Of a stretch of DNA of 40,645 nt, positions 3,901-40,087 are shown piece after piece; the first letter of the stretch is position 1, and the number at the start of each line of letters is the position of its first letter. A program made the position numbers and the translations under genes. The stretch covers positions 1 to 40,645 of the forward strand of contig JACPPN010000396.1 in assembly GCA_016190995.1 (NCBI GenBank), written 5' to 3'. This DNA is from Acidobacteriota bacterium (GTDB lineage: Bacteria; Acidobacteriota; Vicinamibacteria; Vicinamibacterales; JACPPN01). The notes under the pieces were generated by a model. The model did not search any database, was not told the DNA's origin, and worked only from the letters and a program-made list of their open reading frames with translations.

Positions 3901-5121
3901 ATGATCGACTTCGAATTCACCGACGAACAACGCCTGCTCGAGCGGAGCGTGCGCGAGTGGGCGGCACGGGAGGTGGCGCCGCGCATTCACGATCTCGACC
4001 GCGAGCACCGGTTCGACTCGAGTGTGCTGCCGCAGATGGCCTCGCTCGGACTGCTCGGCATCTCGGTGCCGACCGAGTACGGCGGCGCCGGGATGGACTA
4101 CATCAGCCTCGGACTCGCGAGCGAGGAGCTCGAATACGTCGACACGTCGCTGCGCGTCATCATGTCGGTGCACGCCGGGCTCAACTGTCTATCGCTCGTC
4201 ACGTGGGGTAACGAGGACCAGAAGCGCCGGTATCTGGTGCCGCAGGCGCAAGGGGCGAAGATTGCCACCTACGGTCTGACGGAGCCAGCAGCCGGCAGCG
4301 ACGTGCGCGGGATTCAGACGGTCGCGATCAAGAAAGGGGACACCTACTACCTCACCGGCGAGAAGATGTGGATTTCGCTCGCCGACGTCGCGGACAACTT
4401 TCTGGTGTTCGCCTGGACGGATCTCGAGAAGAAAACAGAGCGGGACACGAGCGGACTGAGCGCCTTCATCGTCGAGCGCGCGTACCCCGGATTCTCGAGC
4501 GGCAGCCTGAAGGAGAAGTGGGGCATTCTCGCCGGCAACACGGGGTTCTTCAAGATGGACGACGTCCCGGTCCCCGAAGCGAACCTCCTGGGGCGACCGG
4601 GCGAGGGCTTCAAGATCGCGATGTTCGCGCTCGACCAGGGCCGTTTCACAGTGGCGGCCGGCGCGACCGGTCTCATCCGGGCCTGCCGCGACGCCAGCGT
4701 CAAGTACGCCAAGGAGCGCAAGACGTTCGGCGTCGAGATCGCGCAGCACCAGCTCGTGAAGGAAATGATCGCGCAGATGGAGTCCGACTATCACGCATCG
4801 CGCCTGCTGTGGCTCCGCGCCGGCTGGCTGAAGAATCAGGGGCGGCGAAACACGCGCGAGACGTCGCTGGCGAAATGGTTCGCGAGTGTGGCGTCCGAGC
4901 GCGCCGCCGGCGACGCCGTCCAGATCCATGGCGCCAACGGATATTCGGACGAGTATCCGGTCGGCCGCTACTATCGCAACTGCAAGGGCGCGGTCATCTA
5001 CGAGGGCACGCGTGAGATCCACAAGTTGATGCAGGCCGATTACGTCCTCGGCTCTCGCGTGGACCGGGCGCTCCGGTGCGAGCTCCCCGCGTACGAGCCC
5101 GGCGTGAAGAGCCAAGGGTGA
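3901..5121 (+). CDS. Acyl-CoA dehydrogenase
   Basis: [96 protein letters not shown] at 3901 favoured over ORF start 3820. Confidence 0.93.
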
Positions 5122-35462: not shown

Positions 35463-35540
35463 CGGGATGTAGCGCAGCCTGGATAGCGCACCAGACTGGG
35501 GGTCTGGGGGTCGTGGGTTCGAATCCCACCATCCCGACCA
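35463..35540 (+). tRNA. tRNA-Pro (anticodon GGG), CCA encoded
   Basis: Acceptor cgggatg/catcccg, anticodon stem ccaga/tctgg with loop CTGGGGG, T arm gtggg TTCGAAT cccac, terminal A-CCA. Confidence 0.95.
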
Positions 35541-35727: not shown

Positions 35728-35756
35728 TTGACATTGACTTTAGATATATCTAAACT
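35728..35756 (+). promoter_or_regulatory. Putative promoter with a 16-bp perfect palindromic operator
   Basis: TTGACA (35728-35733), 17-nt spacer, TAAACT (35751-35756); TTTAGATATATCTAAA (35739-35754) is its own reverse complement. Confidence 0.65.
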
Positions 35757-35768
35757 GGGATTCTGTGC

Positions 35769-36263
35769 ATGGCCGTAGAGACGTACACGGTCGTCAGGAT
35801 CCCCAGCCCGAGGGAGTCCAAGCATCGCGGATTGGCTTACTTAACGTGCGACCAGGACGAGGACATCGACGCCGGTTCGATCATCGTTCCGCTAAGCACG
35901 GTGCCGGACAGGAATGAACGGCGGCAGTTGTGGTCGCGGTTTGACTTCTGGATCGACGGAGGCCACAACGACCAGTATTTTCATGGCTGGCCTAGCGAAC
36001 CACAGTACAAGAACTGCTTCGTTTTCAAGTGGAAACGGTTACGGCAACGTCATCGACTGTATGGATTCTTGTGTCATCCGACGCCACAGCGGAACAAGCG
36101 TTTCCAGTTGTGTGTTCTTGTCTCACACCGCACAAAAAACGAGTTGCACACAGACCCGATAGAAAAGGGGCGAGCCGAGGCTCTGCGAGTCAATCAAGCT
36201 GTAACGGCAGCAATCAGTGTTGCGTTTCCGGACACTCAAAAGGGCAACATATGGCTGAATTGA
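35769..36263 (+). CDS. Candidate RelE/HigB (Gp49-like) toxin or uncharacterised protein
   Basis: C-terminal block HRLYGFLCHPTPQRNKRFQLCVLVSHRTKNELHTDPIEKGRAEALR resembles the Gp49/HigB pattern; toxin-first position before an XRE gene. Confidence 0.5.
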   Translation: MAVETYTVVRIPSPRESKHRGLAYLTCDQDEDIDAGSIIVPLSTVPDRNERRQLWSRFDFWIDGGHNDQYFHGWPSEPQYKNCFVFKWKRLRQRHRLYGFLCHPTPQRNKRFQLCVLVSHRTKNELHTDPIEKGRAEALRVNQAVTAAISVAFPDTQKGNIWLN

Positions 36264-36814
36264 AAGGGCACTGGACAAATCGCGACGCAGACGACTTCCT
36301 GTACCGGATCGCGTTCGACTTCGTCAATCAACTGGAGAAGGCGCTCGAGACCGAGCAGGTGAGTCAGGCTCGTCTGGCGAAGAGGCTTGGAGTGACCGAA
36401 GGGCGCGTTTCGCAGGTTCTCAACAATCCCGGGAACCTCACGCTGAAGAAGGTCGTGCAGTATGCGCGTGCGATCGGACGCAAGGTATCGATTGTGGCCT
36501 ACGACGACCGCGATGGCGGCAACAAAATGGGACCAATCAACTCTGAGATCTTTGCGGCATGCTGGGACAGAGTTGGCAGGCCCCGAGACTTCTTCGACTT
36601 GCATGCCAGCAACGCAACGGCACCGAACTTCGGCATCGCGTTTGGTTCTGGTCGGAGCCTTCGGATTCACACGTACCCCGATCAGGCCGCGACCGTTGCG
36701 GACGCTCGCGAGCGCAGGGATGTCGGACCTGGAGCGGTCGAACATGAAGCAGCGAGCGGACGGAACCCCGAAAGACTCTTGGAGACGTCATGGGAGAGTA
36801 CCGTCAATGGCTGA
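36251..36814 (+). CDS. XRE-family HTH protein (candidate HigA-like antitoxin/autorepressor) with C-terminal extension
   Basis: VSQARLAKRLGVTEGRVSQVLNNPGNLTLKKVVQYARAIGRKVSIVAYDD HTH pattern; 13-bp overlap with the upstream gene. Confidence 0.8.
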   Translation: MAELKGHWTNRDADDFLYRIAFDFVNQLEKALETEQVSQARLAKRLGVTEGRVSQVLNNPGNLTLKKVVQYARAIGRKVSIVAYDDRDGGNKMGPINSEIFAACWDRVGRPRDFFDLHASNATAPNFGIAFGSGRSLRIHTYPDQAATVADARERRDVGPGAVEHEAASGRNPERLLETSWESTVNG

Positions 36815-37100
36815 GCCTACTCAAATCGTCTTTAGCCACAAGGAAGTTACAACGGCCCTCATCAAGCAACAGGGTATCCATGAGGGCATTTGGGGCATTC
36901 ACGTTAAGTTCGGACTCAGGGCCACGAATGTTGGCACGACGGACGCCGACATACTCCCTGCTGCGGTCGTTCCCATCATCGAGATAGGCCTTCAGAAATT
37001 CGATACCGAGAACAACTTGTCCGTTGATGCCGCCAAGGTGAATCCCAAACCGGCACTCGCCAAGCAGAGTAGAAAGAGCAAGGCCACGCCGCTTACTTAA
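36807..37100 (+). CDS. Small uncharacterised protein (97 aa), third gene of the coupled module
   Basis: MAEPTQIVFSHKEVTTALIKQQGIHEGIWGIHVKFGLRATNVGTTDADILPAAVVPIIEIGLQKF...; ATG overlaps the XRE stop by 8 bp. Confidence 0.65.
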   Translation: MAEPTQIVFSHKEVTTALIKQQGIHEGIWGIHVKFGLRATNVGTTDADILPAAVVPIIEIGLQKFDTENNLSVDAAKVNPKPALAKQSRKSKATPLT

Positions 37101-38237: not shown

Positions 38238-38768
38238 CTAGTGTGGTGTCCCAGCTAATTCTTTACAACGGCGTACCTTGTCAAGGATGACGTCCGCGGT
38301 GGCTCTCCAGATGAACGGTTTGGGTTGCTCGTTCCAGGTGGCCAGCCAGTGATAGATGGCGCGCTCAAGCTCCTCGACGCTGCGAAAGGTGCCGCGGCGA
38401 ATCATCCGCTCCGTGAGGAGGCCGAACCAGCGCTCGACCTGATTCACCCAGGAGCTGCTGGTGGGGGTGAAATGCAAGTGAAAGCGCTGACGCTTCTTCG
38501 GCTTGAGCCAGCGGGCCACCGCCGCACTCTTGTGCGTGCCGTAGTTGTCCACGATGAGGTGAATCTCCAGATCGGGGGGCACCGCCCGTTCCAACTCCGT
38601 CAGGAAGCGGACGAATTCCCGGCCGCGGTGACGAGGGAGGCAACTGCCAATGACCTTCCCGTTGAGAATGTTGAACGCGGCAAACAGCGTGGTCGTCCCG
38701 TGCCGCTTGTAGTCGTGTGTTTGCCGTTCGGGCAAGCCGGGGCGTAACGGCAAAATGGGGGCGGTGCG
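38238..38768 (-). pseudogene. IS630-family transposase, C-terminal DDE part only
   Basis: THDYKRHGTTTLFAAFNILNGKVIGSCLPRHRGREFVRFLTELE, IHLIVDNYGTHKSAAVARWL, HFTPTSSSWVNQVERWFGLLTERMIRRG; N-terminal HTH portion absent. Confidence 0.85.
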
Positions 38769-38983
38769 TGGGCTTACCGGCGCGTGATTGTCGCAGCGGC
38801 GAGCGCTCTCATCATCTTGTTCCATAGACTGGTGGCTCGTGGCGAGCAGCGCGCTCTGGATATGGGCCTTTCGGTCCTGCTCGCCGCCTTCAGCTACCAC
38901 GACTGGCTGGCGCGTGAAACGGGCCGGCGGCTCCGGGACCAGTTCAAGACCCGCACCTGGCGCATAAAGGTGAGGGCTTACCC

Positions 38984-39217
38984 ATGGAACCCCGCATTAC
39001 GATCGACCCCGGCGTCCACCTTGCCAAGCCCTGCGTCGCGGGCACTCGAATCCCCGTCGAGGCTGTCATCGAGCTGATCGAGGGCGGTCTCTCGTTCGAT
39101 CAGATCCGGAAGGACTACTATCCGGACCTCACGGAGGAGGACCTGAGGGCGTGCGTTCGCTTTGCCCGGAAGGTGCTGGCGGCCGAGGAGATCCACCTGA
39201 GCCCCTCCGCGTCGTGA
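38984..39217 (+). CDS. DUF433 domain protein (antitoxin-like)
   Basis: ITIDPGVHLAKPCVAGTRIPVEAVIELIEGGLSFDQIRKDYYPDLTEEDLRACVRFA. Confidence 0.9.
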   Translation: MEPRITIDPGVHLAKPCVAGTRIPVEAVIELIEGGLSFDQIRKDYYPDLTEEDLRACVRFARKVLAAEEIHLSPSAS

Positions 39218-39579
39218 GATTTCTCCTCGACCAGGATGTGTACGAGTTGACGGCCCGCCTGCTGATCCAGTCCGGATGCGACGTCCTGCGGGTGCGGGAT
39301 CTCGGATTATCCCGAGCTGACGATGTGACCCTCCTGAGGGCTGCCCGGGAACGGGGCTGCGTCCTGGTGACCCGTGACCGGGATTATGGCTACCTGGTCT
39401 TCGTCGAGGCCGTGCAATGGGGTGTGATCTACCTGCGCATCGCGCCAGCGACGGTCGAGGCCGTGCACACTGAGCTCGAGCGCTTGCTGCGAGAGCAGCC
39501 GTTTGACAGGCTGAAGCGGGCGTTCACGGTTGTGGAGCCGGGCCGGTACCGGATCCGGAGTCTGTGTCATGACGCGTGA
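39214..39579 (+). CDS. DUF5615 PIN-like protein (toxin-like)
   Basis: VRFLLDQDVYELTARLLIQSGCDVLRVRDLGLSRADDVTLLRAARERGCVLVTRDRDYGYLVF; GTG start in a GTGA overlap with the DUF433 stop. Confidence 0.88.
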   Translation: MRFLLDQDVYELTARLLIQSGCDVLRVRDLGLSRADDVTLLRAARERGCVLVTRDRDYGYLVFVEAVQWGVIYLRIAPATVEAVHTELERLLREQPFDRLKRAFTVVEPGRYRIRSLCHDA

Positions 39580-39685
39580 GACGATGGCCTCCGTGCTCCG
39601 TGGTCGGCAGCCCCGCAGTCCGTGGTCGCGTAGTCCGGGGAAGGCCCCCGAGCCATGACTGCGGCGATCACGGCTTGGGTGCGAC

Positions 39686-39808
39686 GCGGCGGAACGCTGG
39701 CTGCGGCGTCATCCTCTGGTGCGCTTCCACGACACGTCGGCGCACGCCTCCTGGGTCAATCTCATCGAGTGCTTCTTCAGGATCCTCGGCAAGCAGGGAC
39801 TCACACAG
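39686..39808 (+). pseudogene. Second IS630-like transposase remnant (DDE C-terminal fragment)
   Basis: In-frame ERWLRRHPLVRFHDTSAHASWVNLIECFFRILGKQGLTQ, resembling the HASWLNQIE-type IS630 motif. Confidence 0.7.
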
Positions 39809-39910
39809 CTTCTCGGCGAGCTTGTTCGGACCAGAAATCCACCATCAACTGCTCGACGCTGCGGAACGTGTAAGGTGCTTCGGCACCCTTGAAATGCCGG
39901 TGATCGCCCT

Positions 39911-40087
39911 TTAGGGCATGATGGGCCGGACCTGTGTGGCCGGCATCTCGACGAGGATATCTGCATCGATCGACGCCCGCGGCTCTCCGCTGAACGAGCT
40001 GGCGAGCGATCCGCCGACGGTATAGGGAACCCGGCACGCGTCGAGGGCTGCGGTCACGAGAAGGGCGATGCTGATCGGATCGGTCAC
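39911..40087 (-). pseudogene. Truncated nucleotidyltransferase-like protein (58 aa N-terminal piece)
   Basis: VTDPISIALLVTAALDACRVPYTVGGSLASSFSGEPRASIDADILVEM (GGSLAS...DADILV); stops after 58 aa. Confidence 0.65.

Follow-up and report, generated by a model that had tools for sequence, protein, structure and literature searches.

Toxin-antitoxin-chaperone (TAC) systems, in which a HigBA, HicAB or MqsRA pair is joined by a SecB-like chaperone, as in HigBA1-Rv1957 of M. tuberculosis and in CmdTAC, are known with chaperones of the SecB family. In TAC a short C-terminal extension of the antitoxin confers dependence on the SecB-like chaperone and is transferable, and the antitoxins are of the HigA, HicB and MqsA types (PMC5105189). 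In CmdTAC the chaperone senses a phage capsid protein (PMC11618068). Here we describe a three-gene operon in a stretch of acidobacteriotal DNA of 40,645 nucleotides, the whole of which we call the window, that may be a tripartite toxin-antitoxin (TA) system working in a similar way with an unrelated third protein.

The first open reading frame, P1 (35769-36263, 164 aa), is a candidate toxin to which no family could be assigned; P2 (36251-36814, 187 aa) is an XRE protein and the candidate antitoxin and repressor; and P3 (36807-37100, 97 aa), the third component, is an open reading frame of a new family. All three are on the + strand, and the overlaps are 13 bp between P1 and P2 and 8 bp between P2 and P3. 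On the same strand a promoter-operator (35728-35756) precedes P1. It has a -35 element TTGACA at 35728-35733 and a -10 element TAAACT with its last base at 35756, together a 10/12 match to a sigma-70-type promoter, and the perfect 16-bp palindrome TTTAGATATATCTAAA (35739-35754) is placed between the two and overlaps TAAACT. Because the -10 element ends 12 bp 5' of the P1 ATG, the mRNA leader is probably very short. A tRNA-Pro(ggg) gene lies 5' of the module at 35463-35540. The overlapping same-strand frames, the palindromic promoter before the first of them and the upstream tRNA gene had all been reported in a preliminary description made from the sequence alone, and all were recovered, the frames exactly at 35769-37100.

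Each of the four P1-XRE loci that we found carries the pattern TTGAC-N6-TTTAG-N6-CTAAA without a mismatch, once per locus and immediately 5' of P1. The pattern was absent from all other loci retrieved at that stage, has a single occurrence across the whole source assembly, and gave zero matches in about 200,000 shuffles. Among the four loci the 27-bp promoter-operator block has 67-78% identity, and the 100 bp 5' of it are 22-30% alike, which is background. The HTH region of P2 is as conserved as the operator (GRVSQ-LN-PGNL). The conserved palindrome is thus a predicted operator in the XRE protein's own promoter, and the exact sharing of this element together with an equally conserved P2 HTH is the strongest sign that P2 may be autoregulatory. 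Judged from such comparisons, the three-gene module is more than a chance arrangement, since P1, P2 and P3 are 31-60% identical in unlinked genomes, the differences among module relatives are concentrated at codon position 3, and the palindrome and -35 element are exact in four loci in which other upstream DNA is at background.

The order P1-XRE-P3 is also that of a phage-like element in a second genome of the phylum (G203), where an integrase, judged by eye to be tyrosine-recombinase-like, lies on one side of the triplet and a tail-fibre-like gene on the other. It is found again on the IMG/VR contig IMGVR_UViG_3300012232_000437 (L018), where P1 (3996-4499), XRE (4484-5029) and P3 (5001-5300) overlap and an endolysin gene is near. 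The three genes form overlapping frames behind one promoter, conserved in G203 and L018, with the putative toxin first, and the co-occurrence of the 97-aa family with the XRE gene, proposed as a check in the preliminary description, is borne out. These phage or prophage locations make it plausible that the module has a role in defence, whether carried by phages or otherwise mobile. The module has a GC content of 53-59%, as against 66% in the neighbouring der and merR-like genes, which suggests that it was acquired from elsewhere. Downstream, the 3' end of the tRNA-Pro gene is not repeated in an att-like manner, and no integrase was seen near the module in the window.

The window contains further genes downstream of the module. 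These include a DDE_3 (IS630-type) transposase gene (38241-38900) and an apparent second transposase fragment (39576-39966); the segments 38415-38454 and 39748-39787 resemble each other imperfectly in inverted orientation. A DUF433 gene (38984-39217) and, after it, a DUF5615 PIN-like gene located within 39151-39579 make up a second TA-like pair about 2 kb downstream of the module. A tandem CAATGCA-type 7/14-bp repeat occupies the very end of the contig (40586-40641).

P1 has no match in Pfam, NCBIfam, PADLOC or PHROGs, and its relatives have no Pfam match even at E 10 (four members tested). The earlier proposal that it is a HigB/Gp49/RelE homologue was not upheld: neither PF05973 nor any related toxin family in Pfam matched it, and comparison by hhalign with 17 Gp49 domains from the phylum gave a probability of 0.1%. 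An AlphaFold2 model from an alignment of four sequences is of low confidence (mean pLDDT 53), and a fold search with it gave no usable match and none to RelE, the matches being meaningless. The model places elements in the order beta (20-25), alpha (48-62), beta (84-90), beta (93-101), beta (113-120) and alpha (130-140), an order like that of RelE-type toxins, which is a suggestive likeness in a low-confidence model. The position of P1 and this rough predicted order are compatible with a RelE-like toxin and prove nothing. The relatives of P1, in G203, L018 and L021, are 31-47% identical to it, making four P1 loci with the source. Beyond the source genome the phylum samples gave G203 and a dubious match (L016), which is weak, has eight internal stops and was disregarded. 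A tblastn search of plasmids and phages gave no match, viral searches with P1 or P2 alignments gave no P1 locus other than L018, and a P1 alignment of two rows, searched against genome contigs, recovered a single locus, L021.

That the second protein has an XRE HTH, as first described, is confirmed by an HTH_3 match at E 1.8e-6 (28.3 bits against a curated cut-off of 23). Its nearest solved relatives are HipB antitoxins. P2 has four relatives at 44-45% identity, and at E <= 1e-12 in the phylum sample it is limited to the same two genomes as P1. From about residue 89, 3' of the HTH, P2 has a C-terminal extension (36515-36811, + strand). Its proximal part, roughly 30 residues, is conserved, with the block GPI..EIF..CW...P.DF, while the distal part is a variable, low-charge tail in which S, T, N, Q, G and P are abundant. 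XREs linked to P1 have 92-103 aa after the HTH. We compared 16 Gp49-XRE pairs of the phylum; the HTH is followed by 2-25 aa in the 15 pairs for which no such third gene was recognised, and by 69 aa in the one with DUF3467 (L093). XRE tails overall are therefore 69-103 aa with a third gene and 2-25 aa without, a correlation resting on one Gp49 locus and one four-member XRE family whose members are not independent. HicBs linked to P3 also reach well past the HicB domain; the set of HicB controls is small and mixed. By tail length, the extension is one that the two-gene relatives compared here do not have; its correlation with a third gene fits what a TAC-like mechanism predicts and is not proof of one.

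P3 has no match in Pfam, NCBIfam, PADLOC or PHROGs, its relatives have no significant match in Pfam or PHROGs, and a tblastn search of plasmids and phages gave none. Its AlphaFold2 model is confident (mean pLDDT 85), with a helix at 11-22 followed by five short strands, and matches neither the PDB (best E 1.2, SecB not matched) nor a viral structure library (best E 0.08). SecB is absent from P3 in Pfam and NCBIfam searches as well, so that sequence and predicted fold both set it apart from the SecB-family third gene of TAC, in agreement with the first impression of a third component that is not SecB and has no recognised family. There is no profile match to DUF3467 (PF11950; hhalign 0.2%), and kinship to DUF3467, Gp49, HicA or HicB was rejected by hhalign.

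In samples of the phylum P3 was found in 5/297 and then 7/396 genomes. A P3 relative lies directly 3' of a HicA-HicB pair in five genomes (G266, G075, G040, G340 and G319), forming the three-gene operons L010, L011, L013, L027 and L028. HicB is confirmed by Pfam in G266, G075 and G040; the HicA match exceeds the cut-off in G040 and is weak in the other two, and the pairs in G340 and G319 were identified from similarity and the order of the genes. Two further relatives stand alone on viral contigs with no TA pair, one near a terminase large subunit gene (L019:4953-5252) and one near a portal protein gene (L020:2072-2428). In a tree of P3 the XRE-linked copies form one group in 0/200 bootstrap trees, and for this reason P3 seems to be a third gene that has been exchanged between antitoxin classes, although the tree does not formally contradict a single origin of these copies.

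A different protein takes the third slot elsewhere. In L021, from a Candidatus Solibacter MAG, P1-XRE is followed by DUF3467 (E 2.9e-7) in place of P3, and in L093:1423-2600 (genome G028) Gp49 (E 1.1e-15), XRE and DUF3467 (E 1.3e-11) are in operon order. These two operons indicate that DUF3467 can stand third behind either P1-XRE or a genuine Gp49-XRE pair, a parallel in which P1 would hold the position that a known toxin has in L093. Otherwise DUF3467 is solitary and mostly single-copy (113/199 genomes). A general link of this domain to TA loci was rejected: L021 and L093 are the only cases, and 50 other loci are without TA genes of the types tested. DUF3467 is widespread, was named once, in a single paper, in the open-access library searched for it, and gains a functional context in two loci.

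These data describe a real, conserved, mobile three-gene operon, the simplest reading of which is a TAC-like tripartite TA system. Whether it works like a SecB-dependent TAC with an unrelated third protein we consider evenly balanced. In such a mechanism P1 would be the toxin and P2 the antitoxin, which alone or with P1 would repress the operon by binding TTTAG-N6-CTAAA at its promoter. On its own, P2 would be unstable or slow-folding because of its long low-charge tail, and P3 would keep P2 functional by binding either this tail or the conserved block that precedes it. If P3 were titrated or lost, for example to a phage protein, P2 would be degraded and P1 freed. The triplet kept in G203 and L018, the operator exact in four loci, the P3 relatives after HicAB, DUF3467 in the third slot, the XRE tail lengths and the apparent exchange of P3 in the tree all argue for this, as do the published TAC systems, which have HigBA or HicAB layouts and C-terminal antitoxin extensions as here (PMC5105189). 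Against it are a P1 without detectable homology to any toxin, a predicted P3 fold that is not SecB, P3 relatives without a TA pair in phage contigs, tail cases that are few and not independent, and the number of P1 loci, four. Of the tripartite module proposed in the preliminary description, a TA-like operon with conserved linkage and an operator is supported, and P1 as HigB/Gp49 is not.

Compatible with the TAC-like reading, and tentatively possible, is that P1 is a highly diverged HigB/Gp49 (RelE-fold) mRNA interferase and the locus a HigBA system with an extra gene. The toxin-first, XRE-second order, the beta-alpha-beta-beta-beta-alpha order of the low-confidence model and Gp49 in the equivalent slot of L093 point this way; the hhalign value against Gp49, the lack of any Pfam match at E 10 in four members, and a model at pLDDT 53 with no RelE match point away from it. 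Another explanation, which we think rather unlikely, concerns P3: P1-XRE would be a two-component pair, and P3 a sensor, co-repressor or second antitoxin contacting the toxin or the DNA. P3 is small, has no chaperone-like fold match and has relatives that stand alone beside genes for phage terminase and portal proteins, all of which would suit a general role in binding or sensing. However, the toxins that P3 accompanies (HicA and P1) are of unrelated classes, as are the two DNA-binding antitoxins, and long antitoxin tails occur where there is a third gene, so that the tail as a target fits better.

The module may also be no TA system at all, and instead an autoregulated accessory operon (moron) of a phage or mobile element, in which the XRE controls P1, and P1 and P3 act in host takeover or in the virion. 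The G203 copy between integrase and tail-fibre genes, the L018 copy near an endolysin gene, the low GC content and a P1 that resembles no toxin would suit this. It is nevertheless improbable in view of the tie of P3 to canonical HicAB pairs in five genomes, the DUF3467 replacement common to P1-XRE and Gp49-XRE, and overlapping genes with an operator over the promoter, which are typical of TA loci.

Going further along the TAC-like reading, we speculate that the unrelated XRE and HicB antitoxins both depend on chaperones of a kind that is small, distinct from SecB and new in fold, with P3 as its founding member, that DUF3467 is a second class with solitary and TA-recruited forms as in SecB, and that phage structural proteins are the toxin-releasing trigger, the last because P3 relatives lie in phage head operons. 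All of this together is somewhat unlikely. If true, it would mean that antitoxins came to depend on a third protein on more than one occasion, with a different family and fold; the candidates offered are P3, TA-linked DUF3467 and the unannotated candidate toxin family P1.

Because P3 is not SecB and P1 gives no toxin profile match, we file the module as a member of neither TAC nor Gp49/HigB. With HigBA and Gp49-XRE pairs it shares a gene in the toxin position first, an overlapping XRE second and a palindromic predicted operator over the promoter, but P1 has no Gp49/RelE profile likeness, the XRE tail is long and there is an extra third gene. DUF3467 (PF11950) is likewise a protein of about 100 aa found in the third slot (L021, L093), although it has no profile likeness to P3 and is usually solitary. 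The HicAB-P3 operons have a homologous P3 immediately after the antitoxin, whereas their toxin HicA and antitoxin HicB (RHH) are unrelated to P1 and XRE. Unlike the third component of TAC, P3 is about 97 aa with no likeness to SecB in sequence or fold, and the candidate toxin matches no family searched, in a comparison read from sequence only. Like TAC, the module has the order toxin (putative), antitoxin and third gene, a phage association, a third component common to XRE-type and HicB-type antitoxins, and an extra C-terminal extension of the antitoxin.
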